Notes under the pieces: generated by a model | The model's database searches: none | What the model was told of the DNA's origin: nothing | The model's input: only the letters and a program-made list of their open reading frames with translations | Source of the DNA: Herpomyces periplanetae | Lineage: Eukaryota; Ascomycota; Laboulbeniomycetes; Herpomycetales; Herpomycetaceae | Length of the DNA stretch: 64,000 nt | NCBI GenBank assembly: GCA_009733715.1 | Contig: WMKJ01000039.1 | Coordinates: 41,866-105,865 of the forward strand | Reading direction: 5' to 3' | Translations under genes and position numbers: made by a program | Shown here: in pieces, positions 3,001-64,000 of the stretch | Layout of the letters: every line of letters begins with the position of its first letter | Numbering within the stretch: the stretch's first letter is position 1

Positions 3001-6000
3001 TTGGGTCATTGTGCCACAAAAATAACATTCATATTCACGAACATTGATACAATGTTTTATTACCACAATTCGACTCATTTAAATACACATCAAGATGACC
3101 GTTGCGACTCGAAAACTTTGATGTGCGCAGTCCAGTGTTTTCTTATATATATAAAGATTTTTTTAGGTGTTAAGCTATTTGGAAGCATGTAGACTGGCAT
3201 GAAGTACTTCGTTTACTTTGAAGCCTAAAAATTTCACTATGTAGCTAGATAAATAGTAGGTAGTAATCAAAACTTAACGAGGAATCAAAGCGTTAACTTG
3301 TAGATGCATCACAATAGAACAATTCAAAGAGAGCGCAATACAATAATAATAACCGTTTCTAGACAATAAGATTTATGGAGGGAAAAATTTCGCGCATTAT
3401 TAACCAGTTTAAGTACTGAGTTTTATAAACTCGACAGTTACAAAATCAAGCAAAAAGCATTCAGTTACGAGAAAAAATTTTGGTAATTCTATACCTTAAA
3501 ACATCAAGAATTACAAAGGCATATTGTGACATTTCAAAAGATAACTCTCTGCGTTGATTTAGAAAAACTATTTCCTCCACCCAAAGTTGAACATGATGAG
3601 ATTTTCTGGCAGATATTGTAATACCACAAATTTAAGCCTCACATAAACAACTGGGAATATAAAAAGTTATTTATTAACATATACTCAAAAGAATTAACGT
3701 CTGGTTCATTGAAACATACAAAATAAACCAATTTGCATTCGTAAGTATGCATCCCGGGATAAAACGATAATTTTCTCGAGTAAGAAATTTTGTGAGATGA
3801 GAAAAAATATTGTTTAATCGACGTTGTGCAAGAACTCAATGTGTAATTAGTATTTATAAATATTCAGGCACAACTTGCTTTGCCGCTATTAACTTCAGTT
3901 ATCGTTCAGTCAACCAGACAATTCACATGGCACGAAAGCTGTTTTTTGGTTGAATATTAGTAACTGAACTATTTTCATACTATTGGTGAAGCGCTACGAT
4001 GGGGTTGGTTCAAAGTATTCGATTGAGATAACGTCAATTCGAAATAAGGTTTCCCGCTGATTTTATCACTTCAGCCCTGTAATATGAATTTTTCAAGTTA
4101 CATGTCAATCTCAGTGATTTGTTAGTAAAGTAGCAGGTTACACTTGACGTACATCGCCCTAGGAATTGAAATTTCCATATACGATCTTGGAAAAGATACA
4201 ATTATATTTTCTAAGAATTGAATCACATGTATGATTGTTATGTGAATGTGTTCACCTGTACCGCTTTATGTTTAAAATGTGTGTTCGCAGACTTGAACGT
4301 TTGGAGAATATTACTACATTTTTCGCAGTAACTTCCCACATACTTTTTCCAGTGCACCTTTTAAGCTTTTTAATATTGTTAAGCTCATATTTTTCTAGTA
4401 GAATACAAAATAACAATTGAAGTCTTTAAGATTTGATTAAACTTTAAGCGACTAACTTAATTTTTGCGAATTCAGTTGTACTGGCTTTGTTGCCACCTAC
4501 TGGTCGAGTAATGTGGTTGACTTGAGAGTTATTTTTGTGACCCAACAACGCCAAATTGCAGGATAGAGATAAATTGTAGACTCTTGATAAAAAGTTAAAC
4601 TTTAAAACTCCCATTATTATACGAAAGGAACTATGAGAAGGTTTCTAGATATTTCACAGGCGTTTATCAAATACATTTATCCCAAATTAACATTTACCAA
4701 CGAAACTGCGGAATATTCTTGGTTAATCAAATGCACCTGAGAATGTGGTAACCACAAAATGCTAATGACCAAATTTATTGCGCCCAATACCCAGAATGTT
4801 GACCATAATATGTGTCTGAATGGGCGGAAAACTTCAGATTCATTTTATCTTGATATAGGTTGACAATATACTTGACAGCCTCCAAAATCATCTTCCGCTG
4901 CTCATTTAAAAAATTATGTTATGGTGATTGTTGTATCTGACTAGACAATAGTATCACTACATACTTGTATATTGCTTAAATTGGAAAATATCATCCATAT
5001 CAAGAATTCGATACTTTCGATGTATGTTCTGTCGATGAACGATAAAAATGACAGACAATGTGTTTATCAAGATGAGTGGGGCATAGGTAAAACAGCGCAA
5101 AAGCACTTTAATGTTAAATTTAGGTAGACTTTAAACCTTAATCACAGCCATATAATATTCTTCAAATCTTAAAATAGTTCTTTTAAAATTTGTTTTAAAA
5201 ATATAGTCGACCGTAACCTAAACCAACTTAGATTCTATAAATAATGCTTACTTTCAGTGTCCACTTTCTCTAGAATCTCATGCGTACAATTTCAAATTCT
5301 CATTAACATCATTAGTATTTTACACTGCAACACTCATTTCACAAAACATCAACTTCATTTGTGGTATTTTATTCACCTGATATCTTCAAGTTGTATTGCA
5401 TAATAAACTATCAGACAGCAGTGGCTGTAAGAACCTGAGAATTTAAGAGATGAAAGCCGCTCTTCCTTCAATTATCAATGCACGTATGTCCTACGATGTA
5501 TCAATTTTGTGTTGATAGAATTAGGTGTTTCAGTGAAATCTTCTCTACTGGTGATAAAGAATAAAATTATGTGAACTGTTACATGTTGGAAAAATGGACT
5601 AGTAAAACTTAGCAACTGACCAAGTTTATCTAAAGATAGTTAGGGCAGGGCAGGGCGAGTTCAATGTGACAGTAGAAGTATTCGGACTAGTGGAAACTTA
5701 CGTTTTACCGGACAATTGTATATCGTATACGACGAAATCCGTTCGCGCGTGTAGCACATTACAGTTCGAATAGAATGATAGTTAATTACGTAGTTATAGA
5801 TTGATTGTTGAGTTGTAATCTATTGCTAAAATGTAGTATTGAACTCATTTGCAAATATTTAAATTGGAACGATATTTCGTAATAATCTCTTTTACCATTA
5901 ATGTCAAAATCTATCGCATGCACACATCACCTTGTCCAAATCATGTATGTAGAAATTTCAATTGGTAAAAGTCATCGATGCCAGTCTCTTTTGCGACATT

Positions 6001-7157
6001 GATTCTAGAAACGTCATCGACCCACTATCAAAGAAAAAATGTCAAGATATTATTTGCGCAATTTACCTCAACACGTAGAATTATAGTTAACAATTACCTT
6101 ATGAGGTAACATGAAAAATTTCCATAGCCATAACTAACGGTCAATCGAATAATCAAGGCGATTGTATCCACCAATAACACTTCGTACATCAACCGCGTAC
6201 CTACTTATAAAATCCCAATTGTGACTTAATATCTTCTAATATGTTATCATAGGTTATACCGCATTGATTACCCAGTCCTCAGTTGGCAGTTCTACCTCAA
6301 ATCTAAAATACCAAATCTACGGCAAAGATTAAAAAAATACACCCGTCTTTATGGCTATTTGGTTCGATAAGTTAAACACCCAGATACTAACTTTTCCACA
6401 ACTTTTTCAAGTTGGCATAAAATACCATATTTGGGGTAGCATTATCCAGAACTACGTATCATCATGGTTACTCCGTTCAGTGTATCAAAATTTTGAAAAT
6501 TTTACGCTATTTGTACTTCTTTTAGTTTGTCAATGTAACCTTATGATCATATTCCAATACCTTCAAAAGTTCACATGAGAAATTGTTTCCTTTAATATTC
6601 TCACAAATTCACTCATCCAGTATATACGAATGATTTCTAAACTTTGAATTTAATTTACTCTCAAATTCCTACTCATATTTTTGTGCCTGTCTAATCAATT
6701 TGTGGATAATGCATTCTGACTGTTACTTCAATTTACTTGTGCGGTAATCATGGATAGGTAAGTTTAACTAGCTTCCAAGTTCGCATATGATGTCTTATCT
6801 ATCTTCATACATTCCACAATTTGTAATGCTCTTATTCCAGTTCTAACAGTGCCCAACGTAATTGTATTTTTACTTAGCCGTCAAATATTCTCCGAAACTT
6901 CTATTATAATTATTTTCAGCATAATGCCAACTGTTTATACCCAAGCAATAAAAAATCATGCCGTTAAATATATACAGGGGCTGTTATCAATTGTACATCG
7001 GTTGAAGAATTCAACAATTTCCACAAGTCATACAGCATAATTACTCAACTTGCCATCATTATGCATACAATTCGTACTTTGCGTCATTCGAGATGTTAGT
7101 TTATTCTTCGAAAAGTACCAAAGTGGGAAAAATGAATCGTTAAATATAATTTTCACC
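1..7157. other. AT-rich stretch without a recognisable gene
   Basis: Only short open frames of under 85 codons are present, none with a recognisable motif, signal peptide or repeat. Base composition is visibly more AT-rich than the block after 28.7 kb. I see no transposon open frames, terminal repeats or tRNA-like boxes. It is best read as gene-poor AT-rich DNA of the kind that carries lineage-specific genes in many plant- and animal-associated ascomycetes. Confidence 0.6.
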
Positions 7158-7166
7158 TATAAATAT
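7158..7166 (+). promoter_or_regulatory. TATA box of the 7272 secreted-protein gene
   Basis: TATAAATAT lies 114 nt upstream of the ATG at 7272 and is followed by a C/T-rich leader at about 7180-7235, the usual layout of a fungal core promoter. The paralogous gene at 21069 has TATAAA at almost the same distance. Confidence 0.5.
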
Positions 7167-7271
7167 GAGGTTTCCACTACGTTCTCATTTGTACATTTCA
7201 TCCTCTTCACCCTCAATTTCCCTTTTGAATTCTTATATATTTTTAATAATATCAAATATAATTGATTCAAC

Positions 7272-9339
7272 ATGCGCTCCTCCACAAAATATTATACGAG
7301 CACTGCGCTTGCTATTGCGTTGTATGCAGGCCGGTATGGTGTCAACGCTCACAATACCTTTTATCTAGCAGCCCGGACAGATGCTCCAAATTTTAACAAC
7401 GTGACCTTGGTTTATTCCTTGTCTCCTGATACCTTCTGCATATTTCCTTCTAACCGTGTAAGTAATAATAACGCTTGTTGATTTGTTCCAATTGGTTTTA
7501 GGCTCCATCTTACTTACAATTCTTTTCATAATTTAGAAACCTCCGTTAAATATCCAACCAAAGAGATTTGCATATGACTCCAAGCATGAGAATGTGGTGA
7601 CTCTTGGTACTCGTCAAGTAAATTTTACTTTACCCGACGTTGAGAATTACAACTTTTCTGATGAAGTGGCGGACGATGGTGTTCATTACCTCTTGAATAA
7701 TAACAAGTCATTCCTTGCTTGTAGCTCCCTAAATATGTTGGGCTTTTATCAACTTATGGATGATAACCCAAAGAACTTCCAGTATGGCCATTGTGTTCAC
7801 ACTAAACTTGCTATGCTCGATTATAGATCCAAAAACGGTTCGACCACAGCTCACACTCTTAACCCAACTGATATTGAGATTCCACTTAAAGACTATACAG
7901 TAATAGTCCCCCAGACCATTGCTAATTCAAAACTTACATTATCCGAAATAAAACCAACTGTCGATAATGACCAGACTAATTCATCTTCCCCTAAGTCACC
8001 TCACCTCACCAGTCCTAAAACTGGAGTTAAAATGGCTGTTCCAGAAATTAGTGTTTCACAAAATAATACAAAAAAATCAACTGATAAAAAGGCACATCAA
8101 ACGTATACAGTGGATGGAGAGGTCCCTATTGATGACGATTTACCTGAAATTGACTCCGAAGATAGTCCGGAGGAAAAGACGGAAGAGGAAAATTATCCCA
8201 GGTCATTGGACTCAGTTGAGAAAATTGAAGACAGTCAACCATCCGTTTTCAAAACAGAGGCAAAACCCACGAAGTTTGACCAAGAATTTTTGACAAGCCA
8301 TCCAGAAATAAATGAATCCATAATCGAATTCTTCGAACGTCTGCCAGGAGCTATTGAAGCCGGGATTAAAGCAGGGACATTAGAGGTAGTTCCTCCTGGA
8401 CAAAACTTTAAGGTAACCCTTCCAGTTAAAGAATATTTGGAAAGCCTACCTGATATAATAGAATCTGGTATTAAGGATAAAGTAATTAAGGCCGCCAACT
8501 CGGAAAATACTGCTACGAGTGACAATTCTGAGAGTGCTAAGCAAGATCGGTCATCTCAAGATTCAATACAAAATAATACACAATCAAGTGATGCACGGAC
8601 CTCCAGTCCAGTCGCACCTGTTGTTGATGAAAATGGAGTAAAGCATTTTTCGATTAATAAACCTTCAAAAGGGCGGAATACAGAAGTGGTAGCTCCAGTA
8701 CCTGACAAAACAGCTGCTAAATTAGAACCAATCACCAAAAAAATTGAGGATGCTGAATCTTCAAAACAGGAAAAAACATACTTAACAAGCCCAGAACCCA
8801 ATTATGAAGGTTCTGCGGAACTTGATATTAGCAAAGGCATCCAGGAAGGTAAACCTTCAAGAACGAGAACAATTAAAGCAAAGACTCCAGGGCCTAATTA
8901 TTCAACTGTAGATAAATCATTGATTGGCCAGGGAATTGAGGAAGGGAAACCCGAGCCAGATCATGAACGGGCTCGTCGTCGAGCAAAGAGACAGACAGCC
9001 TCGTTAAAATTAGGTACTTCTGGAAGAATAGCCGAAAGGAAACTAGAGTTGAGCGATTCTGAGAATGATTCAAAGAAAAAAGGATCAGAAGAATCACTTG
9101 GCACCACCTATCCCAAGGGCTCCGGGGATTCAGTTTCTTCTCGTGGACGTCAAAGAATAAGTCCTCAGGTGTTGACTTCCATAGGCCAATTTAGAAAAGG
9201 CAATGGGGAAGTGAAGTCGGGGCGAAGCGACTCTCAAACTCATACTAAGATAAAGAGCCCTAGATATTCCATTACTTCCTATTCAAAAACGGATGCCAGG
9301 GAAGCGAACCAGCATCCATATTTATCCAAAACCTCTTAA
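7272..9339 (+). CDS. Secreted modular protein of unknown function (effector-like), 662 aa, one intron
   Basis: I do not recognise this family. Model: exon 1 7272-7457, intron 7458-7536 (GTAAGT...TTTAG, phase 0, 79 bp), exon 2 7537-9339. Residues 1-26 form a signal peptide ending near NA|HNTF, so the product should be secreted. Residues 27-190 form a domain shared with the gene at 21069: FxLAA just after the signal peptide, an LAC motif near 124, CVHTKLAML near 147-155. The two matching cysteines could form a disulfide. A long acidic, low-complexity stretch follows, then two copies of an LPxxIExGIKxG module (about 316-385), degenerate PNY...GIxEGKP repeats (about 481-540) and a basic RARRRAKR stretch (8968-8991) resembling a Kex2-type processing site. 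The tail is Ser/Lys-rich. The domain reads as secreted and modular; an effector or surface role is inference from architecture and the AT-rich setting. Confidence 0.8.
8299..8500 (+). repeat. Two LPxxIExGIK modules inside the secreted protein
   Basis: Two successive units, centred on LPGAIEAGIKAG and LPDIIESGIKDK, each preceded by an aromatic/acidic helix-like segment (IIEFFER, VKEYLES). The same module makes up almost all of the protein encoded at 14464-15198, linking the two genes. Confidence 0.75.
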
Positions 9340-12300
9340 GTCCATTGCCGATGCCATCAAAATCTCTGCAATCTATGTAGTCCAGTCATCAGGAAAACAA
9401 GTTAGTGGAGATGGTGAATCAAGACAAAATATCAGAATTATCTGATAGACGTGAATGTTAATTCTGAAGTATTTTTTATGAACATTATTGAAAAACATAT
9501 CGATGTAACTGTTTCATTTGTATCTTTCACACATTGGGCAATTGACGTTTTTTAAGATTTTGATGACGATTAGTTATTTTTAGCAAAGAAAACATATTAA
9601 CCGGTATTTATTCAAAATTTTCCGTCTTGAGATATAATCTTATAATGAATGGTATATTCAACATGTAGTTGATTGTTTAAAAACCAATACTGCTACTAGA
9701 TATTGTAAAAATATTCCAAGTTTGATCATAATTTAACTTGTAAATAATGATGAGGATATTTACCTCACATTAAATTTAAAATTTTACACTTGAAACCTGC
9801 TAACAATGTATTACCATTTAGCAGAGGTGCAGACTACATGGAATTCACGAAAATTTTCCTTGTAAAATCGTTCAGGTATTTTGTCATGAAGATACCTGAA
9901 GAGAATTAGCATAATTTAGAAAACATTACTCTGAGCAAATTGGTCAATGTAGTTACAGCTAACAAGAACAGTAACAAGTCTTGACAAAAAATATAAAAAT
10001 AATAATTTAGTATGCTTAAAAATATGTTTGTGAGTACAATTGTGTAAATTCATGGTATAGTAAAAATCACATATTTTCAAATTTTGAATTCACGGGAAAT
10101 TTATTATATCAAGCCAGAATATTTAAGAATGATACCATAGCTTTTTCAAATTAGAATCATCCCGCAGCATGAAATTCGAATAGTTTTGCATACAAGTATC
10201 TTTAAATATTTCTACAAAGATTTGATTTGTTTATCGCTTTATGAAAGTAAAATTTAATGTCAAGAGTAATGTGATAATCAAATAATATTATTGGGCTGAA
10301 GTATCCTAGGGGCTGTATATCATATAAGCCTAAGCGGAGAAAACAATCTGAGGTGATTTAAATATGCACCAATTTTTTCGAATCTTAAAATCTATTGAGC
10401 TCGAAAAATATTTCACAAAACTAAATTTAGTTATTTCATTATAGTAGAAGCATTCGAGGCACATTTATTGGAACGCATTTTGAAAACGATTAGCGCTTCC
10501 AACCTTGAATGCTATCAAGGTTGTTAGTGAAGCAATTTAGAACATAAAAATAGCGTTTTCCCAGTAGTAGAATACATTCTAATCTCAATATTTAAGCTAC
10601 CAGACTCTAATTATAATTTTGTCTGTTATGTTGACGAGAACCTATCTGTTGCATTAACACATGAAATGGATTTCTTGGATTCTGAAAACGTTAAAATCAT
10701 ATTAAATAAACTGAAATGATCATTGTGGATATACCAATGAATTGAGGTGCTATATATGGGAATTTTTACAGTTATCTTTGTACGACATGTAAGAATCGAA
10801 AAAATATAAAACACCACAATACAAACTCAAAATATTGTCCATAGAAATAAACACAAATGTTGGTATAGCATATTAATATTTATGACCTGGATTCAAGAAT
10901 TCGACTTAATCCTGCCGGTTCGTTGAAGTAAACAGGGCCAAAAACTATTCTAGAGCCACGTATAATTTTATTGAAATAATATTGACGATAATTCCCTAAA
11001 ATTATTAAAATTCGAATTAAAAATTATCAAAAGCGCAATTAGGGTTGAAGTAACTAGTATGCACAAAATAATTGGATGCAAAACTGGGTATAAAATAGCG
11101 TACTCTTAGAAAATTAAAGCATATGTTCTGTTGTTGCTCACTCATTTGCCAAACATTATCATGAAAATTGTGGAAAAGTTTATATATAACATGTATAAGA
11201 CCAAATATAAGAAAAAGATGACTTTGAAAACGATACTTGTCAATATTAAGTTTGGAGAGCATATCCGGCTTGAATTGAAGATTAGGTGAAGTCAGGATAA
11301 AGTATTGAATGATTTATATACAAGAATAATTTTAAGAAAGCATCAGATACTAATTAGATGAAGGAGCGCAAAATAATTTGAAGAAATGTCTCGGACAAAT
11401 CATGCAACGAATTCCAACGAAACAGAATTTTCTGTCAAAAAATTTTGAAAATATTTCCTAAATAGGAAATTCGCGCTGAGACGGGACAAATGAATTGTGC
11501 TGTTGGCTCATCTAGTTGAGCGACACTAGGGAAATCGATGAGGAATTCGTCTGAAAAAATTCGAATTAACAAGTTTGATTGGAAGTTGGTTGAAAAGCAA
11601 ATATCAGTGTGGGCAATTGGGAATCAAGCATAGGCAAATCGGCCAGTGTAATAAGATATAACTACGGAACAAACCTCGTTATTGGATTTGAAGAATATCT
11701 AGAGTAATGAATGTTCATATATTTTATTGCTAATGAACTCTCGAACCCAATTCTTAACTCTACAACTCGAATTGGCCTTTTTGGGACATATAAACGTGTT
11801 GAACATGTCATATTTTGAAGTGCGCTCTCTGGGAGTTAATTTATTTTTGAGGTAACTGTGACCTATTCTCACTGCTTTTCATTTGAAAAGCAGAGCAAAA
11901 GAAGTAAAAGCACGTGCTCACTTCAACTCTAATACCTCGCATGAAAACTAAACTAACTTCGAAAAATGAGGTTAAGAATCAATACTCATTAATCCCGGGT
12001 CTACATTTTGTTTATTGCATTTGTTTTAATTCGGGTTAATTGTAATTGCAAACGCTTGTAGTTTGAACAGATAAATTCCGTTCTCCTTGGTTTCTGAAAT
12101 AAGTTTTCACATTCCTCGACCAAGAAACATGATATTGTGTTTATCTCATTTTCAAAATCTCTATATTTCGATAAGTAATTAATGGTTAATTTTTACTGCA
12201 ATAATTGTACTATATTTTCTTTATTTTAAATTATTGCTCTATACTTTAGTAACCGTATTAATTCGACTGAAACTCTTGGAAATCATTTTCTACGTGTTTA

Positions 12301-14463
12301 TGCGTCTGGATAATGGTTGATTTTGTAACGATCATTCGAATGGCAAATCTATGTATAGAAGGCTAGATTCCCTTAAACTCTCTCTCATTTCCAACATTTC
12401 TATCAAACTAGATTTTATTTTAATAAACTGAACTTCTCTTGTTGAAGGAAAGGATATAAGAGTATATTCTACATGAAAAATAATTACACAATTCTAACTG
12501 TTTGAAATACATAAAATGAGATCATTAATGTAATGATGGCAGGACTGCGATAAATTTAAGGTCAAATGTCAATAAAAAGGTATTATAAACATTGTAAACC
12601 AGATTAGATTAAGCTAATTTTACTATTTTAACATGTCTTAACTTTTATACATCTTAAATGATATTTATCAAGTTAAATATTATATCAAAAAGAGAGTAAA
12701 CTGCAAGTCATATGGTTAGATGACATGATTATATATATACGAGATCGCAAAGGATGTTCATTATCACAATCCTATGGATTTTGAAAATTTACGTTTACCT
12801 TTGAATAACCTATGTAATAATATATCTCTTCTGGAATGATTATGTAGCCTGAGCTTGTTAAATCTACAGACTTCGAGATTTTTTTCCATCCAAAATTTAA
12901 TGATGTTATAATATGATTGGCCCTATCGCCAGATATGGCTCGCACCATAACTATTTTCTCCGATTGAATATCAGCACATTGCTCTTTCGATCTTAATATT
13001 CAGGAAATTTATACTTGGTAATAATATCAGTTATCTGGTGCTTGATAACTCATATGAGTATTTTAGTGAAAAGCTAATTGTATAGTTTGGAGCTCATTAA
13101 AACTAATATGTTGAAACAGTAAAAAAGACGTTCGTCCAAGTTGAACAATTATATTAGATTCTAACCAATGTAGAGACTTGAAAATAAATGAAAAGTTAAG
13201 TGAATTTTCGATAATTCAAGCTGAATTCTCAGTTATCAAAATATTTTCTTGTGTAATCTCAAGATCCTAACTCTACAGAAACATTATAGAACACATCCCT
13301 GACATTTGTTCCACAGGCAAGTAGTTATTCAGGGCTTCCAAGTAATCAACTGGTACCCTGATGTGTTGAAAAAATTTATTTTGGTTTGGTAGAAGTCCTT
13401 TAACACGTCGATATCTTCTGTAAACTCATTGGTCATGTTGTTCATTGAAACGAAAAGAATGTTATTAAGATAATTATCTTGTGTTTCGATTCAGTATATC
13501 CAATTTGGTCATTCTAAGTCGTTGTAAATCTCTTACTTGAAATCTTTTAACTTAACCAAATACGCCTAATGTATCTCCAAGTTAAACGAAGATATATCAT
13601 ATTTCCTATTATTTTAATGTACAAGTAAACCTTGTTTGTAATAATGTAATCCCTCACTAGGTTTGTATCTCATTTACTTATTATGGAAAATTTTGATATT
13701 CTTGATATTCCTCCAAACATACTTTTAAAATTGGACACGCTTTGCCAAATGTGTGATCAATAACTCATGTTATAATTATCATCAGACTTTCACTACCAAT
13801 GTACCGCTTAATTCATGTGTTTATGGAACATATATTACCATCATTAAACAACTATTCGGGAAAATCTGTATATGTTTTTAAACAAGTTTTTGGAGACGAC
13901 GTCTGTTTTGATTCTCTTTTTTAGCCAAAATTTTTTTTTACAAATTTAATTTTCAAATTACATACCAAAATTTACCTCTTTTAAACTGTTAATGTTGATT
14001 TTACCCAAATACTTATTTCAATGGAAATTATATTCATGTGTCAAAGATGTATTGTTGAATAGAAAAATTGACCTTAACCAATGTCTACCGTCTGGAGAAT
14101 CATCATACAGATATATGTATTCATAAATGTCAGAATTATACCAATTTCATATCAACCCATACATAACATATGAAAATATGAACAGAAACATGTTTCGGTA
14201 TTGAAGTTTAATTGATAAGTGAGCGAATTGAGAATTTATGAAGAATAAGATCAGCAAAAACCTTAGACAGAATTTTGATGCAAATGATGTCACGGCCGAT
14301 GACAAATCTGGTAAAATTCTGATTGAAATCTTAATTACTCTTTGAAAACCACTGTTGTATTTAATGTGCATACAACCGAATTTCTAAACCTACCAAAAAT
14401 ATCATAATTCACAAACAGTACAACCAGCATATAATATTGGAAAACGAAAAGAAATACAACGAG
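9340..14463. other. AT-rich intergenic stretch
   Basis: No convincing gene. Directly after the stop at 9339 another frame stays open for about 30 codons and begins with an LKSIADAIK motif reminiscent of the LPxAIEAGIK module (see findings). A short frame at about 14236-14343 reads with coding-like composition, but nothing identifies it. The reading frame of the next gene is open from 14365 but has no ATG before 14464. Confidence 0.5.
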
Positions 14464-15198
14464 ATGGATTCAGTACAAAAGTCAAATGACAGTCTCCCAC
14501 CGGCTATCGAAGCTGGTATAAAAGACGGCAAGTTAGATAAAGCCACTTGGGAAAATCATGCGGAACTTGCAAAATCAATGCAAAAATTTGTTGAAAGCTT
14601 ACCGGAGGCTATTGAAGCAGGCATCAAAGCTGGCAAGCTAAAAGTGGCTACCTGGGGAAGCAAACTCGAAGATACGGACTCGATGAAGAAGTTTATTGAT
14701 AGCCTACCAGAAGTCATCGAGGCTGGAATCAAAGGGGGAATTTTGAAAGTGACCGGTATGGGAGGAAAATCGGGAGAGATGAGTTGCACCAAGGATCCTG
14801 AGGCCACTGCGAAAGATGCGATAAATGCAGGCATCAAAACAGGAGAGCTACCAAAAGATATTTTACAAACCAACCCGAACCTACTAGAGTCGATGAAAAC
14901 TTTTATTTCAGGACTTCCTAATGCTGTAGAAGCTGCTTTAAAAGCCGGAACGTTCAAAGTTTCGCCTGGTGAAAGTGATAAAGAACCGTGCAATTCAAAT
15001 AATCATCTTGATGATACTGTCAGTAAAGTGATCAATGCGGGCATTGCATCTGGAAAGTTGCCTGAAGACACCTGGAAAAATAACACTAACCTAGTTGAAA
15101 CGCTTAAGAAATTTATTGAAGGTCTTCCCAAAGCTGTTGAAGCTGGTTTAAAGGCTGGAACGTTTAAACCAGTAACTAATGAGGGTAAATCAAATTAA
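14464..15198 (+). CDS. Repeat protein built of LPxAIEAGIKxG modules, about 244 aa; 5' end uncertain
   Basis: The family is unknown to me. The frame encodes about seven degenerate units of 30-40 residues, each with a core such as LPEAIEAGIKAGKLK and, in most, a (S)MKKFIE-like segment leading into the next core. Several units alternate with an INAGIKxGxLP variant, suggesting a two-part repeat. The units are amphipathic and probably helical. The first in-frame ATG is 14464. The frame is open upstream to 14365 without an ATG, so this could also be the 3' exon of a longer gene; an acceptor-like CAG ends at 14427. With the 14464 start there is no signal peptide, unlike the related module-bearing gene at 7272, and no TATA box is evident at about -110. 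The 253-codon open frame and periodic protein repeat in AT-rich DNA make it clearly coding. Confidence 0.7.
   Translation: MDSVQKSNDSLPPAIEAGIKDGKLDKATWENHAELAKSMQKFVESLPEAIEAGIKAGKLKVATWGSKLEDTDSMKKFIDSLPEVIEAGIKGGILKVTGMGGKSGEMSCTKDPEATAKDAINAGIKTGELPKDILQTNPNLLESMKTFISGLPNAVEAALKAGTFKVSPGESDKEPCNSNNHLDDTVSKVINAGIASGKLPEDTWKNNTNLVETLKKFIEGLPKAVEAGLKAGTFKPVTNEGKSN
14491..15168 (+). repeat. Tandem degenerate protein repeats (about 7 units)
   Basis: Units begin at LPPAIEAGIKDG, LPEAIEAGIKAG, LPEVIEAGIKGG, INAGIKTGELP, LPNAVEAALKAG, INAGIASGKLP and LPKAVEAGLKAG. Nucleotide identity between units is modest, while the Leu-Pro, Ala/Val-Glu-Ala and Gly-Ile-Lys positions are kept, suggesting old duplications under protein-level constraint. 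Confidence 0.75.
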
Positions 15199-18100
15199 AG
15201 AGTTGGTCCAACCGAAGCTTGAGAATAGTTGTCAACCTTTAAGTAATGCAGAACATGCATCAGCTAGTATTAAACTTCATAATTCTAGCTATCGCCTAAC
15301 ATATAGAGGGCTCGGTTTAATGACTACAATACATTTACATGAATACAGTGCAACTAAATCTGTCGTATAATAATGTTTAGTACTTTTGTATTTAGTTAAA
15401 TATCGAAGACTTTGATAAATCAAAGAGTATAAATTTATAGTATATTAAATCGTGATCTACCGGATAAGTTGAATATATTTCGCATTTCACCAACACGAAT
15501 ATTGCGGTAGATTTAAGAAACTTGAAAGGGTATTGAGATTCAAGTGGTCAAGTATTTACACACTGTATAAAGCTAGGCTATGATCTGCTTTCTGGTAGAG
15601 CGCCAGGAAATATCGGACTGAAATTAATACATCCTAGAGAATACTGTACTAACACTGTAATAAAAATCGCTTGTCAAATTTTGTAAATTATTATACACAA
15701 GATAACTGGTTAAGCTAAAAATTACACTCTTGTACAAGTATACTTAATATCAAGAGACTAAAGAAACTGAGGGAGTTGACAAAGACAATCCAAACGATAA
15801 TTATGCCATTAAAACATAATCTGGTTAATTAGTTGAGGAAAAACGAAATACAAATTCTATAGCTATGCCAGTTTCATACAAATGCATTCGAATAATAACT
15901 TTGCACGTTAAATTGGATGTTGGTAGAAGATAAAAAGAATGAAACAAAGATATTTGTTTGCCTTTTCAGTCTCTATGTGTTCTCTAAACAGGCTAGACAA
16001 ATAAGAAAATTGAATGACCTTAAAATAAAAATAGTAGTGCCAAATTGTAAGTTTGGGTATGTTCCGAGTAATGTGTACACAGGAGTAGATAACTGATTAT
16101 GATGCTTGAGTCTCATTGCATTCCAAAAATCGAATATTCCACTGTAATATATAGAGAATGTTGAATAAGTTTACCAAAATTATTCATTTACTCCGTCAAG
16201 TATGGCTACACGTTTTATTATTGCAATTTCGAGTTGTTCTAACTACTTTTTTTTAAATAATAGTATACCCTTCATAACTTTCGTAGCGAATATTAACCAT
16301 TAGAGTATATACCTTATCCAACCATTAAACATAGGAAAAAGTTGCGCTAACAGCTAGGTAACTTTTTCGGGCTTCTAAGTCAATGTAATTCAAGAAATTT
16401 ATCGAGACAATAGCTGTTAAGAGCAATCAGACGAATTTACGTTTAGACCGAAAGAAGTATCCTTTTCGAACGAACTTTAAGTTCAATGTGTTGAAATGTA
16501 GAATATGTAAATCATGAAAATTTTACAATACCAGAAATTCTTTAACAGAAAAATATTTAGTTTATAATGTTTCATACCTAAATGTAATGAAATCCGGTAT
16601 AAAACTCATAGGAATAATAATCAAACAAGTAAACGATTGAGTGATATATTCAAATATAGGTATACTGTAATTTGTACTATCAGACATCGTGAAGTTAATT
16701 TAAGGTCCATGCTGCACTTAACATTAGTTGTGGAAATTTGACCGTCACTATAAGAGTATAAGAGGCATACAATCAAAAAACAACTGAAAAATAAAGCTAA
16801 AATATCTCTAAACATTAATTAGAGCTCCAGCGAGAAATTCTGTTGCAGTGTATTATGTTGCTTTGTATAAATGTTTACAATTACCAATTTTTCACACAAG
16901 AAATAGCAAGAATTGAAATTACATGGTTAACAAATATTTCTATTGAGAAGTTTTAAAAATATTCCAAATTTGCGCGGGTTGGAAGCACTCATATCCTAAA
17001 TTCCATAAAAAATAGTCATTTTTAAGCTCTAATTTAGGAGTTAATATACAACAGTAGTCTGTTGATTCAAGGTAAAACTATCAAAAGCTCAATAAGTATA
17101 CAATGATATATATAAGATTAAATATCGTGTTTCTATGAGCAAGAAATGAATTTTGGGTGACCAAATAATGTAGACAGTGAGTTAAGGGGACGGGGCATGG
17201 TTTCAATCATATAGGATATTAGAGTTTGTGATTGCAGCGGAAAAGTTAACTGACATTTTGTGCCCAAATGCTAAATTTTTGCAGAAGAAATAGGATGATA
17301 CCGCAAAACTATTGATACAATGAGGTTACCTGATGAGTTGTACCCAATTACAAATATGGCAGATTAAACCTATGAATTAGTGGATTCAGAGTGAAGCTCT
17401 GTGAAGATTTCAGCGAACAGCTATACGTGAAGAATGTTAGCATGGACGGAAAGGTTAGTGAGGCGCGAATGTCAAAACTTATGGTATATTGGAATAACCT
17501 AGTTCCATGATAAGTTACGCAAAACTAAAGTATAATGATAAACTTAATATGAAAGAACTATCAACCCGGAATCAGTTTTCAAACACTATTTAATTATGAA
17601 GTAAAATTAACAAATGACGAAAGACGAGAAACATTTCCCTAACAAGAATTCTGATAATAACGATGCGAACATTTAATAGGCACGAAGAAACTCCAAAAAG
17701 GATTTAGTAGGCATTCTGTAATAAACCCATAAGAATGAAATACTACATTTGAAATTGATGTAGATAATTAATTTAGTATTGAATGATATACTTTTACAAC
17801 TACCAACTTAGTGTGCATACACAGTCTCAAAAGTTTAAGCCAAACACGGACAAGTGAGTTTACTGACAAACTGTGAAAATGATTGTAGTTGAAAAGTAAG
17901 ATATTAAATATGTAAGTCTTAATTTGTGTCATGGAACATGAAACCAAGCAGCCTAAAGAGAAAATAAGTTCGAAATGCAAAATCGTTTTTTTAGTATCTT
18001 AAAACCAAAGTAGGCATATTAAAAAAAGCATAAAATCGAATTTAAATTTACTGGCAAGGAAAGTCCAGAACCGCACCCCACGATATTTTAATTGGAATTA

Positions 18101-20964
18101 TACGAATTATACTGAATTTAATATCGGTAACGTAGCCAAAACTAGCTGGTTGGTCTTGAAAATTTTCAGTGTTTCATCCACCATATTCTTTGTAGGATAG
18201 TTAAACAAAATTCTTTAAGTAACTTTTCCAATTTCAAGTAATCTACTATTCATATAAAAATTCTCCCAGAATACGGTAGCCCAGTCTGCTCAAATTTAAC
18301 TTGTTTCACTTGTAAATTTATTCGGGTGAGCATTTTCCTGTAATCTTCACTGTACAAACTAAATTTTGGAAATTTATCTTATCTAAATCAACTTTACATC
18401 AACATGGCGATTTTTTATGAGTAGTTCCCCCATTTAATAAAGTTAAAACGATTATTGGTACACAATTGGTGCTGAATACAAAATTTCCATATATACACAA
18501 AGAAATTCATGGGCTCAATCATTTAGAGAAGTTATACTGATAGAAGTACAAAAGTCATTAATGTCCAAAAACCTCAAACACGGTATATCACATTATAACT
18601 TGCAAGTAATAACTATAATTAACATTTGCATCGACCAGAATTTTAGTATAATCAAGTCCCCTTGGGAGAGTCGACTATTTGAGCAGATGGCATTAAAGTG
18701 TACTCGAAAAAAGATATTTAACTAACCACGTTTACAAAAATTTCGCGCTTGGTCAAGGAGTGGCATAGCCATAAGATATTCGAATAGTTAACCTTGAATT
18801 ATTTTGGGTCTCAAATACACCTATGTTTTCCCATCAATTGTCATAAATTTTGGGTATGGCTTTTATAAACGTATTGTATTCCTCAATTGGAACACATTGC
18901 ATGTTAAGTGCATTTCAAGATTAGTACCATTTCAGTTAACTGTAAGATCACACCACAGTTTATTATCTCTTATTTGTCTTTGTATTCCCTCTATTTTACT
19001 TAAGTCTCATTTAGAACAAGTTGCCAATACTAAAAGTACATCTAACGTCAAAGCCATGTATGTGCTAAATCCATTTTCTTTCGGACTTTAAAAAATCAGA
19101 TTTCTGACATCCATTTATGTCATTATGATTCGTAGTTTGCTCATTTTTTGCCTTAAACTCAAGTATACAATGCTAACTTTCTTTTCCCTTGGTCGAAATG
19201 TAGTTAAAGTTGTTGAGTCTTTGCAGCGTATGCTATCATGCTGCATAATATCGCTTTTAGCTAGACACGAATCTAAACTTAACCCTGTGACTTCTTACAA
19301 GTTTTTGTATATTGAGATGTTAAATCCTTTGACATAATATGCTACTGTACAGAGAAACAATCATTATGTTAGAAATTTTTCAGCGAATAGTTTGATATCG
19401 TTGCCGAATTTATGTTAAAATCGACTAGTCTGGTCCAAATGTGATCTTAGCAGAAGGAATTTGTATGCTTAATTAACGGATATTTCCAATGAGTCCAATA
19501 TATCTCTAGAATAGCTGACATTTATATTGTAACCTAACATGAGATAAGTTGAACTTTTCTGATTCATGGAAAAATCTCTCAACTATCAATCTTCAGTGCT
19601 TGAGACTATTGTGTCAACAATTAACAAATGCTATAGGGATCTTTTTCGTATGTTGGCATGAGTATACCACAAATATAGAGATGAACTCGAATCAGTCAAG
19701 TTGTTCCAATTCGCTTAACAATAAAACAGTTAAATGAATCCAAATTAACATCACTCTAGAAAAATCCGTCCAAAACGCATTTATACTCAAAAAAAATTCA
19801 TGTTTTTATTTCTACCAAGACTTAATGCTACGAAATAGACAATTACAATCTTATGATGTATCGGGAATCCTCCAAAATTTATGAAATTGTTCAGCCATAA
19901 AGGCCGGTGATACATTCCATAATTGATTAATGGTATAATTGAGTTAGTTTACTGATATACACAGATATTTTTTCCCGAACTGCTTAAAATTTTAATGTTC
20001 TTTCATCCCAACATATTGGCACCACTGTAACTTAACATGTGGAAATTCGTTTCATGGCCAAAGTTGATGCAATTCACCACTAACTTTGTTCTCTTGCTCT
20101 ATGCAATCGGGAGTTTAAACTCAATTCGGAATTTGATTCAAAAATCAGAATGAAGAATACGCATATTCTAGATTCTCGGTGTTCAATTACCGTGATATTC
20201 AATCCAATATAATAAAAAGTCTGATTTTTCTAACTTGTCATCTTGATACATAAATCTCCTACGTTTTTTCTCTAAGGGACGTTAGCTATATCTTCCCTTT
20301 TTGTAAAGTAGTAATCATTCATTGTGCCAACTTCAAACCCCGAATCTGTTGTCATCTTCGTGATACTCTTTGCTCTTTTCTCTTTGCGAAACTATAACTT
20401 AAATATTCTATAGTGCATCAATTGATTTAAATTTACTCTAATCTTATAAATTCTTTCCTTAAGTTTAGCTGCATTTATCTATATGGCCAACAGCACTCAC
20501 ATGAGAAATCTAGTACATATTGATTTTGTATTTACATTTAGTTATCTTACCTTTATTATCAATTTTCAAATGCGTCGAGGTTCCATCGCAATAGTATTTA
20601 TTGTGCAAAATCCAGCTCATAGCTATCATCATTATGATCGTGTTACCAAATAACACTCTCAAAAGTGCCTAATACTTAAACATAGAGACTGGTTGGCAGA
20701 AAAAATATAATCAATCTTTTGCTTTTATTTTTCGTCAATGCGTCTAGTTAACTCCATTCTTTTTTCATGCTTAAGTTCTAGAATCTTTATTTTTCCATGG
20801 ACGAAAGCCTATGATTAACTCTTGTTAAGTTATGCTGTAGCATTACCAAAATTGAACATCCCCAAAGTATATCATGTATACTTCAGAATGTTAAAGTAAA
20901 CCTGTCTCCGGCATAAAGTCGATTCTGATTGAAAGGCGATAATTTTCAGACTTACCGATTCTTG
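15199..20964. other. AT-rich intergenic stretch
   Basis: No recognisable gene. Overlapping the end of the repeat-protein gene, another frame (15179-15370, ATG at 15179) is open for 63 codons with reasonably balanced amino-acid use. It could be a shifted 3' continuation or chance. The remainder contains only short, stop-dense frames. Confidence 0.5.
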
Positions 20965-20970
20965 TATAAA
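20965..20970 (+). promoter_or_regulatory. TATA box of the 21069 secreted-protein gene
   Basis: TATAAA lies 104 nt upstream of the ATG at 21069. Its spacing matches the TATA box of the paralogue at 7272 (114 nt), supporting both start codons. Confidence 0.5.
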
Positions 20971-21068
20971 GGGTGGATCTTCATTATTTTGTCTGCGTTT
21001 TAATTTTCTAAATCTATCCCCATAATTCGTAACGTATTTTGGTTACTAAAAAGAATATCTAATATAAT

Positions 21069-21716
21069 ATGTATACCTCTTCAGTAAATGTCTTGAAATC
21101 TGTGTTAGCTATAGCGCTTTTAATTGGCCAGCGTTGTGTTTATGCCAATAATAAGTTTGTACTAGCAGCTGTAGTGGATGATGTTATGTTCGGTGAAATC
21201 GAATTTGTTCATCGGAACTATGTAACCGAATTTGGAGTTTCTCCTAGTGTTTTTGTACGTTACTTTGGAGCACTTTTCTATAAAGTTTTATTCGTAGATG
21301 CTTACATGGAATGATTGTTCTAGGTAATGGATTATCATGTGAATCCAGCAATATTTGTGATGGGTGACGACCCAAACGTTATTGTTACTGACGAGGAGAT
21401 TCCGAGGAAATTTCACCTTGAATCTGGTGGAAAAAGCAACTTTAGCGTATTTACTTCTGAAGATGGTGTAAAATACCTCAGAAATTACAATGAGCCATAT
21501 ATTGCCTGTGCTAGTCCTCAAAATATGAGCTTCTATGAGTTTTGGAAATGGGAAGATGATTTGGAAAGTGCTGATAGATGCCACACTACTGAGTTGGCTA
21601 TGCTTGATGTTTATGAAAATGATAAACCAGTGCCCAAAGAAATTTCAGATTCGGGTACTGAAATCAAATTTGACTCATATTCAGTTGTGTGCCCCAAGGC
21701 TCTATGCTACCTCTAG
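21069..21716 (+). CDS. Secreted protein paralogous to the N-terminal domain of the 7272 gene, 192 aa, one intron
   Basis: Model: exon 1 21069-21254, intron 21255-21323 (GTACGT...TTCTAG, 69 bp, phase 0), exon 2 21324-21716. Residues 1-26 are a signal peptide ending near YA|NNKF. The intron falls after codon 62, exactly as in the gene at 7272, and the proteins align through FxLAA after the signal peptide, GVxYL, a (Y/F)(I/L)AC motif, (S/G)FY and CHTTELAMLD. It lacks the acidic tail and LPxAIEAGIK modules and stops shortly after the conserved domain. Four cysteines are visible in the mature part, two matching the paralogue. It is probably a small secreted protein; function unknown. Exon 1 read without splicing hits a stop soon after the donor, consistent with a genuine intron. 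Confidence 0.8.
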
Positions 21717-24686
21717 CTTGATATATAATGCCCAATATTTAAAACTTGCAAAAACTCTTGTTTGACTCCTTCAGTTAAGTTGAGCTAAATGTTAATCTGC
21801 TATTGGTGCTCTTAGTTTTTATTGATGAATATATAGAGAGTAGAAATGTGAATATCAGTATAAAATAAGCGTCAAAGCTTTTACTGTAGCTTCAAAGAGT
21901 ATTCACCACAGAAATAACTGATTTAATAACTTGGCCTCACTTTCACATAACATGAAAAAATGTGAAGTTTACTTTGATGCGAGGCCATCAAAACTTTGGG
22001 TTGTTATTCATATAAAGTTGTAGCCGAAATTCACGCATATGACTAGAAATATAATTTAGTGCAAAATATGGTTCTCAAGTTTATATACCGTTCATTTGTG
22101 ATTGTAATTCTCGATTAAGCTACTTTGATGGTTCATGTTGTGCATTATTTGGCAAACCAATGATTGTTGTTGGAAAAGAACTGTGATACAAACCAATTAC
22201 AATCAACGAAATTCGAACTAGGATTTACAAATTTCTTTTAGTTAATGGTCGGGGATTAGACTAACAAACATGAATCGTATCATTCACTTATAGGAAATGT
22301 TATTTCAAGTAGTAATAAATATAGTCTAGTAAAAATACAACATAATGTATATTATTTAAGTTGGACGCAACATTCAACAAATTTTTGGGTTTGTTAAAAA
22401 TTCGAGTTTCGTGGAGATTTTTGAGAATTGATCAAGTGGGAATTATGAGTTGGAGGCAATTAATTAAACTCACACTAGACTCTGCAGAAATGATATAGGA
22501 TTTATGATCAAGAAAAGTTTCTTAATAAACCCTGTGGAAGTTATCTGGAGTAACTTCAAGTTTCTGCATACCAAGTTTGAAATTTGGAGAAAATCAAAAT
22601 ATTACGATATCTCTGTTACAAGTATTTAATAAATCCCCAATCTAGTATGTTGTGAGGATGAGATATTAACATGTTTCCATGGTTATTCATTTATATTCAT
22701 ATTTTCAGTGAAGCTATATTTTGGGCAATTCAAGGTGGTTATGCTAAAATCGTGTAATTAAGCTAGATAATAAAACTGTTCACTCAGAATACATATTGCA
22801 AAAGCTTTTAAATTTCTTACTAGCATTTTAGAGCCAAAGCATTGTAGAAAAATGCTGATGGAAAACTTGATTAACGACTCAATAGTGCTAGCAACAAAAC
22901 ATCGGCTAATTGAACATCATGTATGGTCAAGCAATTATTATTATCAATCCAATGATAGTAATGGAGAAGACAATGTACACGCTACTGAGCCGGCAAATAA
23001 TTTTTAGTCGTATAGCTTGCTGATTTTTATTCGAATTTGTGCTTCGATCCATTATTCTGTTCCTAAATGTATTTAACAATACTGCAGTAATATGAAATCA
23101 ACAAATTTCCAACGAGTTTATGAAACAAATGTTGTATTACCGGTAGACATAGTATCATAAATAAGTCTTTAAAAATTTCGTGATTTCTGTGGTGCAGAGT
23201 TGATCAATCTGAAGTTATTGTGTCGGCGAAAAATCATAAAACATACTCAGACTACTACCCTGGAATATATTTTCTTCAATGGCAGCTCTGAAAACCTTAA
23301 TACATCAGAAACAAGCAAACATTAATTAACAGTGAAGACTTTTCAAGAAAATATTTACGCACATCATTCAAAAGCATATTATCGTTTTATTACTCTACAC
23401 CAAAACTCAGGATCTGTAAGTCAAATCAAGGTGAGTTTAGTAGCATAGAAAGATGATAAAAATTCAAGCATTTATGAAGTGCGGTCAGTCTAATGATTGG
23501 CTTATTGATTTTCAGCTAGGTTCTTAGTTAGGAATGCTTCGGTGGATAATTAAAAATAAAGATGCAAATTTGTGCACGAAAGCAAGAAATAAGGGCTTTC
23601 AAATGTAAGATCCAAAATTACATTATTTTTGATATTAAAAAAAGTAAAATTTTCCGTCTCAATAAGCAGAGAAGAGATCATTCTATGAAATTAATTCCAC
23701 TTTTCGAGTAGTGATGTATGTTGATGTCATATATTTTCACTTGGAATCAATTACTATTCATTCAACCGTTCAAAACAGCTATTTGCGGCGAAAAACTGTA
23801 CAAAATTGTGATCTAGTTTAGTAGTAACCTCTTCACGGCCGGCTTAAGATTTGAAACTGTTCAATGGCCCCAAAAATATTCGGTAAATTTGTATTAACGA
23901 TTAAGAAGAAATAGAGCAGGAAACAGAGCTTACAGATAAAGATAAATTCATTAACTTGCAAGGCATTTACAAAACATGTCACCATATTCTTTCGTCATAA
24001 AACTAACGAATCTTGCATCGAAAATATCAAAATCCGTGCTGAGATGGTCTCTAGTTTACGGATATTAGTATATTTTCAACGAAAAACAAACCTGTCTGGT
24101 CAAGTGGGCCAGTGTATGATTGATTTAGCACTGAACCGGATCCCAAAAATTTAACTGATCTAGGATGCGTAAATTCCAGATAGAAGTATACCCAGAAATT
24201 GAAAAAAATTTAGCGACAAAAGTATAACCGAGCATTGAAAGTTGTTTTCTTTTAAAGTCATGATTGTAAAAGATATAGATTTAATCGAGCAACGGGTAAA
24301 TTGACTAGGCAAAGTAGAAAAAAAATGATATTAGAGCCTTTTTCCTAAATAGGAAATTAAAACAGCATTTTGAGATTCAAGATTTGACGAAGCTACGTGA
24401 GAAATAAAGATAAGCGCAGGGTTTAAGACAAAAAATTTAGATTAGTAGGGATAAAACGTAGACGATTTTGCGGCAAAATAGTAACAAGATGGACAGTACT
24501 GTGGAATGATTTTTTGTCAAGTCATTCAATTTTATAGTTCTAATACGGTCATGGAGATGGAATATCAAATTGAACTGAGTTAAGCACAGATTATTTATAA
24601 GGATTCTTATATTAAGCACGCTTATTATGGCCAGTACGAAGTTGAGAAATGGAATTTGATTTTGGATTTCTTAAATAGCAGTGTGA

Positions 24687-24884
24687 ATGGAGCCTAAACC
24701 AGCAAAATTTAAAGATGGGCTAGAAGTGAGAGTACAGTACAGACAACGGTTGATTGAAGCCAAATTGGCATTGACAAAATACCAAAATCAGCGCAGATGT
24801 GCTTCTATACAAGCATATTTAAACACATTACATACCTTGGAGATTGCATCCTTTTTGTTCGTACTATATCCTACCAATATCTAG
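24687..24884 (+). pseudogene. Possible retrotransposon gag-like remnant (65 codons)
   Basis: Starts at an ATG and reads with mixed, charged composition unlike the surrounding AT-rich DNA. A SIQAYLNTLHTL segment recalls the SVQxYxxxFxxL pattern of LTR-retrotransposon gag capsid regions. The resemblance is by eye and short. No reverse transcriptase, zinc knuckle or LTR was found nearby, so a decayed fragment or an unrelated small gene are both possible. Confidence 0.25.
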
Positions 24885-26333
24885 ATATGTACCTTATCAA
24901 TTAGTCAAGGTTCATAGTTGGATGGATTTTAAAAAAATCATGATTGACTAAATTAAAAATTTCATTTATGCTTTTAATGTCTAACAAAAAAAACATCCAA
25001 CTTTGTTTCAAAGAACTACACATTTGTACAATAAGTCTTTAAAATGCTTGAGCCTCTCTTTTCTTTTATTATTCTCTTACAATTATAGCATTTATTACTT
25101 TTAAAAAGATTTGAACAAGTGAGACTAGCCTACCGATACCTGGAGTTGACAATTTTCCACTACCGATATTTACCTGCCAAAGACTCGCTCGGAACCTTTG
25201 GTATGAATGTTCTCGTATTCTCAATATACTATATATGCATGTCAATTTTGACACCTATATCAAACTACATATACTCAATTTACAATATTTTCAATTGCAT
25301 TGGACAAATTTCTTGATTCTTATCCTCGTTACACTCAGTCTTGCCTCGTGTTCACCTTTAAACAGTGAATTGTTCGCCTATTCGCTACATTATAAACTCA
25401 TAAAAACTGCTCCATGAGCGATAAATCAAAGACCACTGAGCTTTTAATTACACCTTGTCTAGTAAAATACTAAAATTTAGAATTTTTGCGAATATACTCA
25501 CATCCAATAGATTTAACGGTAGGAATCGTCTATTAACATTTAGACTCCAACTCTAGTTATTATTATTCCTTTGACTACTTAAGTTTAAGTATAAATTAGT
25601 AGAAATCACAATAATAAAATATATTTACTTCTTACCTTCAATCTTAACTAACATTATCTCTCCTAATTTACACTTATACGTTTAAACTAGCCAAAATACA
25701 CTTCCACATTCCATGTTTCTGACTTTGCACTTACTTTAGCACTGCCCAGAAACTGGTGCCGTGTCAACCGTTATACTACGTTTTATCTTCCGGCTCAAAT
25801 AAATTTAAACTTTTTATAACATTACTTTTGCTCATCTGTATCGGCGAACCATTCTCCAGATATTTCTTAAAGACTACCTACGTTATACCATATTGGTAAA
25901 TGGACTATGTTTCACTCACAACCTATCGGCCCCTAGATATGCCATGATATTTAGCCTCATTATTGATATAAATATGGTCAAATTTAAGATGGATATAAAT
26001 TATCGAGATATTTCGACAGATTAAACAAGCCCCAGGATATTCAATTATCCATTTGGGAGAGGTCAAGACTATTTTTTCTATATAATAATTTTACGCAGAC
26101 ATTATCCTCAACTTAGCGGTATATACTTCCTTGCTCGTTCAACCACAAATAATTTGGGTGGTTATAAAAATTTTGCAGAGGAAAATGCTATTCCAAACCA
26201 TGGAGCGTGTTTAAATACTGAAATGGAAATAATTGAAAATTACTAAAATATTGAAAACCCATCCGAGCCAATCACAAAAATGATATTGAGGTTCCATCTG
26301 AATACGATATGGAAATTTCCACATGTTTGTTTC

Positions 26334-26597
26334 TCACCACTTACTTTTGAGACACTGACTAGCATGGTTTAGAGAACTAGAAAAACCACTCGAAGGCAAG
26401 ATGAGAACAAGATTTTGCGAAATTTGTAATGCTGTAGCCATTTTTAAAAAAAAACCTCCGACTTGTTTGTATCCACACTGATCTCGAACCCAAGCAGGAT
26501 TAGTTATTGACGTCCTTGGAAAGACTGTTTGAGTATTTAGTTTTAATTCCAGGGCGCTTTCGCAAAGAAACCTTGAGCCGTGAACGTCTGTATTCAA
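26334..26597 (-). pseudogene. Unidentified coding-like fragment (87 codons)
   Basis: The minus-strand frame has balanced composition (for example TNPAWVRDQCGYKQVGGFF) and higher local GC than its surroundings. No family is recognised. It may be a remnant of a gene or transposon; it could equally be a chance frame. Confidence 0.25.
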
Positions 26598-63775: not shown

Positions 63776-63842
63776 TTGCGTACGTGCGTACGTGCGTGTG
63801 TGCGTGTGTGCGTGTATGCATGTATGTATACATGCATGCATT
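63776..63842 (+). repeat. Alternating GCGTAC/GTGTGC/ATGCATGT tract
   Basis: A nearly continuous alternating purine-pyrimidine stretch of CGTACGTG, GTGTGCGT and ATGTATGC units, about 65 nt long. It is a candidate Z-DNA or cruciform-prone sequence; the open frames reading Val/Cys/Ala-rich peptides through it are artefacts of the repeat. Confidence 0.7.
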
Positions 63843-64000
63843 TACCGTTCGCACCGGCACCGGCACTAGTACACCTAGTGATAACTTTTCTTTTACCATT
63901 ATCCTCTTACTTCCCTTCTCCCTCCCCTTCCCCCCGCCCTCCCCCTCCCTCCCCACTCCCCAATTTCTCCCATCTTCCCACCTCTTAACCCCCTTCACTA

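Follow-up and report, generated by a model that had tools for sequence, protein, structure and literature searches.

The window analyzed in this work is a stretch of 64,000 nucleotides from the fungus Herpomyces periplanetae (Laboulbeniomycetes), positions 41,866 to 105,865 of contig WMKJ01000039.1, i.e., the last 64 kb of this 105,865-b contig (C152), and all positions given below refer to the window unless the contig is named. In its left part, within an AT-rich gene desert, lie two intact paralogous genes, A (7272–9339, + strand; predicted product of 662 aa) and B (21069–21716, + strand; 192 aa), whose products are predicted to be secreted. A gene built of repeats, G3, is placed between them, and the relic of a third copy, C, follows gene B.

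Genes A and B and their predicted secreted products

The first 190 residues of protein A (the head) align to the whole of protein B with 29% identity (55 of 189 aligned columns), one internal gap of a single residue and a three-residue overhang at the B end. The score of the mature proteins against each other was 148, whereas the maximum of 2000 shuffles was 57. When the exon-2 proteins were used as queries against the assembly (13.79 Mb in 220 contigs), they matched each other with E values of 8e-9 and 1e-8 and gave no further match at E ≤ 1, and single-exon searches with A or B also recovered A and B alone. Identity at codon positions 1, 2, and 3 (189 aligned codons) equals 0.42, 0.54, and 0.39, respectively, the pattern expected of genes under selection for their protein products. 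Proteins A and B are paralogs, and both carry the predicted features of secreted proteins.

The signal peptides were judged by a simple test, i.e., Kyte-Doolittle windows, with the cut site placed by eye according to the V-x-A rule. The hydrophobic core occupies residues 11–20 of both proteins (TALAIALYAG in A, with a moderate value of 1.69, and SVLAIALLIG in B, with 2.70), and the likely cut falls after VNA26 in A and after VYA26 in B. Past residue 26, no 19-residue stretch of A or B exceeds 1.35, which means that no later membrane helix is present, and neither C-terminus is of the glycosylphosphatidylinositol (GPI) type or transmembrane. As a prediction, the secretion of A and B is well supported. 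The heads contain five (A) and two (B) N-glycosylation sequons, and only two cysteines, C124 and C148, are common to both proteins (of three in A and five in B).

An earlier, sequence-only reading of this DNA had described A and B as homologous proteins with a signal peptide, an F-x-L-A-A start of the mature part, and an (L/I)-A-C motif, all of which were found here; in both proteins, (I/L)AC is followed by 23 residues and then by a cysteine. A further motif, reported as C-H-T-x-L-A-M-L, is indeed shared, but its wording needs correction, as protein A reads C-V-H-T-K-L-A-M-L and protein B C-H-T-T-E-L-A-M-L. Because the two differ after the first cysteine, the common form is C-x-x-T-x-L-A-M-L-D.

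The same reading had placed a phase-0 intron after codon 62 of both genes and a TATA box 104–114 nt upstream of the start codons, and our analysis agrees on both points. The intron sites coincide within an ungapped stretch of the protein alignment, and a branch-like CTTAC motif lies 28 nt (A) and 23 nt (B) before the intron end. TATAAA is found at −114 in A, which has an additional TATATA at −38, and at −104 in B. Since the + strand of the AT-rich island has on average 0.56 TATAWA sites in 250 nt, a single TATA box carries little weight. The splicing and transcription of A and B are predicted. Coordinates are summarized in Table 1.

Table 1. Features of the AT-rich region discussed in the text (window positions)
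Feature	Position	Strand	Remarks
AT-rich gene desert, window part	1..28635		contig ~26001–70500, 44.5 kb
TATAAA of gene A	7158..7163	+	114 nt 5' of ATG
Gene A, exon 1	7272..7457	+	62 codons, ATG at 7272; predicted signal peptide, then FYLAA (start of mature head)
Gene A, intron	7458..7536	+	predicted; phase 0, 79 nt, GTAAGT...CTTAC...TAG
Gene A, exon 2	7537..9339	+	remainder of head to ~7920, then tail; stop 9337–9339
Gene A, tail part matching G3	8206..8547	+	36% identity, E 9e-17; two 35-residue repeat cores
RRRAKR in gene A	8974..8991	+	Kex2-like dibasic stretch, residues 542–547; putative site
Gene G3	14464..15198	+	244 aa, intact; seven EAGIKAG-type repeat cores, 35-residue spacing
TATAAA of gene B	20965..20970	+	104 nt 5' of ATG
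Gene B, exon 1	21069..21254	+	62 codons, ATG at 21069; predicted signal peptide, then FVLAA (start of mature part)
Gene B, intron	21255..21323	+	predicted; phase 0, 69 nt, GTACGT...CTTAC...TAG
Gene B, exon 2	21324..21716	+	stop included; conserved IAC and C-x-x-T-x-L-A-M-L-D motifs
TATAAA before relic C	25590..25595	+	~104 nt 5' of ATG-equivalent position
Relic C, exon-1 piece	25694..25813	+	no ATG at equivalent place; then stop
Relic C, exon-2 piece	26025..26243	+	open stretch; 26124–26234 matches exon 2

Relic C, gene G3, and the tail of protein A

Scanning of the contig with a profile built from A and B revealed, in addition to these genes, two weak matches at 25697–25804 (8.2 bits) and 26124–26234 (10.1 bits), in the correct order and on the correct strand; separate exon profiles score the two pieces at 12.1 and 11.2 bits. 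An ordered pair of this kind (both matches with at least 7 bits, on the same strand, in order, and no more than 800 nt apart, a rule fixed after relic C had been sighted) was found in none of 20 simulated islands, which modelled the 44.5-kb island only and in which the best single score was 8.1. The lack of an ATG, the presence of stops, and the small gaps visible in the DNA alignment are the reasons for which C is read as a decayed copy. In the comparison of exon-1 DNA, 16 of 2000 random island stretches scored as well as the A–C pair, 107 as well as A–B, and 592 as well as B–C; thus A–C stands out, and the two other pairs do not.

Beyond A, B, and C, the profile scans of the contig found nothing else of at least 9 bits, and there was no head relic 5' of G3. 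The same profile gave one match (E 1.1) in 20 sampled 10-kb stretches of the assembly. A candidate further copy at C108:9984-10094, similar to the relic exon-1 piece with E 0.063, contains an internal stop and has no family gene recognizable by eye in the surrounding 701 bases, and it was not counted.

Past the head, protein A has a tail of ~470 residues with a high content of S, K, E, T, and P, part of which is shared with G3. The repeat cores of G3 begin at residues 15, 50, 85, 120, 155, 190, and 225, i.e., with a spacing of exactly 35, and the same spacing separates the two cores in the tail of A. In a search of the whole assembly at E ≤ 0.1, G3-type sequence was found in these two places alone. 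The similarity starts at the start methionine of G3. Judging by eye, unit types alternate along G3, and the 35-residue repeats thereby appear to pair into a 70-residue pattern. No signal peptide was recognized in G3 (best 10-residue hydrophobicity of 0.85 in windows starting at residues 1–40), and there is no TATAWA in the 250 nt 5' of the gene. Relic C, the repeat gene G3, and the head-plus-tail structure of A with its G3 repeats had gone unreported in the sequence-only reading, and its statement on the solitary position of A and B in AT-rich DNA is almost correct, with G3 between them and relic C after them as the exceptions.

Comparison of G3 with Pfam gave nothing above the cut-off, there was no relative in viral contigs, and the single match in PDB sequences had an E value of 1.7. 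Weak matches to 11 Pfam families (the best one being linker histone, 0.00094), as well as a match of DUF4124 to the tail of A (E 0.0047), remained below the cut-off and were taken as chance. The exact 35-residue spacing and the seven units of G3 resemble pentatricopeptide repeat (PPR) proteins, helical repeat proteins whose unit is 35 residues long. They differ from them in that Pfam searches with G3 and A list no PPR family at E ≤ 1 and that helix is predicted in G3 and the tail of A at low confidence only (structure model of both with a predicted local distance difference test score, pLDDT, of 37.2). Kex2-processed repeat proteins (KEPs), defined by a KR/RR site after every repeat unit, were also considered and rejected: in A, KR/RR occurs solely at residues 71 and 542–547, and B has none. 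The RRRAKR stretch in the tail of A is one that we presume to fit the Kex2 preference.

Searches for relatives and the genomic setting

The sequence-only reading had regarded A and B as a lineage-specific family with no named domain, and as far as the searched collections reach, this is upheld. The head gave nothing above the cut-off in Pfam (B had no match at all), no match at E ≤ 1 in NCBIfam or at E ≤ 10 in PDB sequences, and none at E ≤ 10 among 767 candidates drawn from 5.8 billion proteins. In scans run through short peptide patterns, there were 61 pattern matches in viral contigs and 84 in prokaryote genomes and contigs, of which none was confirmed. Two weak Pfam matches on A, Baculo_E56 (E 0.022 for the head and 0.1 for the whole protein) and CBM27 (0.18), lie below the cut-off and were taken as chance. 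It should be stressed that the set of 5.8 billion proteins returned neither A nor B and therefore seems to lack this organism, and that any claim of missing relatives beyond the class depends on the coverage of this set.

The GC content of the island equals 32%, as against 42–43% on either flank, with a sharp change at both borders. An AT isochore made by repeat-induced point mutation (RIP) was rejected, as the TA/AT index of 0.86 and the (CA+TG)/(AC+GT) index of 1.21 carry no RIP signature. A coding scan of the island (amino-acid log-odds trained on 58 long frames outside it; frames of at least 40 codons) gave 121.9 for exon 2 of A, 58.6 for G3, and 18.1 for exon 2 of B, whereas the best score of 20 simulated islands was 11.4. 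All other scores above this value belong to antisense frames over A and G3, which leaves A, G3, and B as the only independent above-chance frames of the desert; this, together with relic C and G3, is new here. Exon 1 of A, which is short, scored 6.1, below the threshold, and the scan therefore misses short exons.

To the right, the island is bordered by an ectonucleotidase-related type I phosphodiesterase/nucleotide pyrophosphatase gene (29412–30830, + strand; PF01663, E 6e-93) with 50–58% identity to its relatives, the named ones among the best 120 listed being filamentous ascomycetes; RAD24-like and TLC-domain genes lie to the left. At the left border itself (contig 22205–25375, + strand; L008:2205-5375), a frame of 1057 residues, rich in Ser, Thr, and Pro, contains tandem repeats (PLPSTQGPPSIQ). 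Its hydrophobic C-terminus gives it, by eye, the look of a GPI-anchored wall mucin, and Pfam yielded nothing for it at E ≤ 0.01.

Averaged over the initial 10-kb stretches of 20 sampled contigs, the GC content is 40.07%, and three of these stretches (L023, L027, L028) fall below 36%. Two of these three carry ThiF/ubiquitin-activating, WD40, PP2C, and Pkr1 genes; in the third, the one frame checked had no Pfam match. Elsewhere in the window, positions 58001–60000 comprise strongly G-skewed DNA (GC skew of 0.69 in one 2-kb step) with a GGAGGGGGA array at 59838, and GTGCGTGT and C-rich arrays occupy 63784–63961, close to the contig end. Cytochrome oxidase subunit 1 found no match at E ≤ 0.001 in the whole assembly, and the mitochondrial genome may therefore be missing from it.

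A possible role at the host interface and its alternatives

H. periplanetae lives as an obligate biotroph on the American cockroach (PMC7005119), and haustoria occur in all Herpomyces and penetrate the integument into the haemocoel (PMC8805332). We propose that A and B may form a secreted family that is specific to the lineage, evolves in an effector-like manner, and acts where fungus and host meet; the chances of this reading appear evenly balanced. A host-interface protein, possibly an effector, is the simplest explanation for an orphan family of predicted secreted proteins that, together with a decayed copy, lies in a gene desert of an obligate haustorial parasite. The interpretation given by the sequence-only reading is thus partly supported: its term effector-like fits the obligate haustorial biotroph and the pattern of gain and decay, whereas any role toward the host stays conditional.

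On this proposal, A and B would be duplicates that arose in AT-rich DNA with few genes, where the third copy decayed. The signal peptide would direct the proteins through the endoplasmic reticulum and be cut after about residue 26, and the mature head of ~165 residues, possibly held by a C124–C148 disulphide, would be exported in soluble form, having neither a membrane helix nor a GPI-type tail. It might act where the thallus or haustorium meets the cuticle, epidermis, or haemolymph of the host, speculatively by binding a host factor. The long, probably disordered tail added in A, which contains two G3-type repeats, may serve to bind a partner or may be cleaved at the Kex2-like site.

The closest known parallel is that of the candidate secreted effector proteins (CSEPs) of powdery mildews and rusts. 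Like these, A and B are orphan, duplicated, and by prediction soluble proteins with a signal peptide, one copy has decayed, and the genes occupy a gene-poor location in an obligate biotroph with haustoria. The differences are an arthropod host, only two intact copies, few cysteines, and the long repeat tail of A; moreover, A and B share no sequence with CSEPs. Of the properties used to recognize CSEPs, a signal peptide without an anchor, no homolog in the searched sets, and duplication with gain and loss (A, B, and relic C, a small family) were found. A and B are not small and cysteine-rich, properties that not every CSEP definition demands.

Several observations weigh against a role as host-directed effectors. 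With only two conserved cysteines, A and B are not classic cysteine-rich effectors, protein A is long for an effector (662 aa), and with only two intact copies in the assembly, at the sensitivity of single-sequence searches, there is no large effector family. AT-richness alone is no mark of effectors here, since two of the three AT-rich stretches hold ordinary housekeeping-type genes. None of the known effector folds (RALPH, MAX, ToxA, LARS, or similar) can be claimed, because the structure models (pLDDT of 40.2 for exon 2 alone of B and A, two sequences, and 37.2 for G3 with the tail of A) are uninformative. When single sequences served as queries against the assembly, A and B failed to retrieve relic C, and the exon-1 piece of C failed to retrieve A or B; the support for C therefore comes from its profile matches, their order, and the gene layout. 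Upstream of A, B, and C, the similarity in DNA does not rise above that of random island stretches (165, 333, and 291 of 2000 comparisons as good for A–B, A–C, and B–C, respectively), and the TATA spacing is all that the three have in common there. Furthermore, the orphan status may only reflect the absence of annotated Laboulbeniomycete proteomes from the searched set, and the searched assembly is smaller than that published for H. periplanetae D. Haelew. 1187d (15.0 Mb, 632 contigs >1 kb, 40.23% GC; PMC7005119), perhaps with short contigs left out.

Among the alternatives, the one to be taken most seriously, albeit doubtful, is that A and B are structural or adhesive proteins belonging to the wall of the fungus or to the surface of its thallus, similar to Aspergillus PhiA, which diverged past recognition and have no direct action on the host. 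It would agree with their predicted secretion, with the long S/T/P-rich tail of A, and with the wall-anchored look of the repeat protein at the left border of the island. The resemblance of the head to PhiA was initially our assumption, and it was examined with 367 relatives of a PhiA sequence at E ≤ 0.001, the best 120 of which were taken and 118 retained after a length filter (two dropped). The head length is similar, the F-x-(L/I)-x-A start that we take to be typical of PhiA is present, and the spacing between IAC and the cysteine is 23 residues in A and B, while among the 118 PhiA-type proteins 111 have a spacing of 24 and 6 one of 23. The best local hhalign match also sits on the IAC motif. 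However, the profile comparisons were no better than shuffles: the local hhalign P was 0.14, with a score that no fewer than 10 out of 100 shuffles of the columns equalled, the global P was 0.63 and again not above shuffles, and the PhiA profile gave −1.6 bits for A (equalled by 146 of the 362 shuffles reported) and −1.7 bits for B (103 of 317) in HMMER. Wall anchoring is also opposed by the C-termini of A and B, which are neither GPI-type nor transmembrane, and a wall protein would not usually be gained and lost within a gene desert. A search of the assembly with PhiA gave nothing at E ≤ 10, which, made with no control, shows little. For PhiA itself, searches of Pfam at E ≤ 1 and of PDB at E ≤ 10 came back empty; a missing Pfam match therefore says little on membership in fungal wall proteins generally.

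It is unlikely that the family serves reproduction or development of the fungus (perithecium, trichogyne, or spore surface) and became orphan through fast evolution in an isolated class. Fast-evolving orphan secreted proteins are common among reproductive genes too, and the published assembly derives from a thallus with three perithecia (PMC7005119), but nothing specific in the sequences points in this direction.

We regard it as highly improbable that the island is host, microbial, or mobile DNA joined during amplification, or an acquired element. The published DNA was obtained by multiple-displacement amplification from one thallus off a cockroach (PMC7005119), and the composition changes abruptly at both borders. 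Against this, the same contig carries eukaryotic genes on either side, including the pyrophosphatase with its ascomycete relatives, other AT-rich stretches of the assembly hold ordinary genes, A and B have short predicted introns, and the scans of viral contigs found no relative of A, B, or G3, and those of prokaryote contigs none of A or B. Equally improbable is that A, G3, and B are non-functional leftovers or chance frames. One copy, C, clearly is a relic, but the coding scores of exon 2 of A, G3, and exon 2 of B exceed those of all the simulated islands and the differences between A and B track the codon position.

Returning to the proposed role of A and B at the host interface, our literature search found no effector candidate named for Herpomyces or Laboulbeniales; most subscription journals lay outside its range, and the matches for Laboulbeniales appeared unrelated by their titles and opening abstract lines. 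Among the papers listed for broader topics, none looked like a study of Laboulbeniomycete effectors, which counts for little. We tentatively suggest, as a possibility below an even chance, that this locus is the first molecular candidate for host interaction in Laboulbeniomycetes, in which effector-like gain and decay within a non-RIP AT-rich desert, and the joining in A of a secreted head with a family of 35-residue repeats, might contribute to the one-host-one-parasite specificity that has been suggested for species with haustoria. Two intact orphan genes with predicted secreted products and their decayed sibling provide concrete sequences to compare across Herpomyces species living on different cockroaches.

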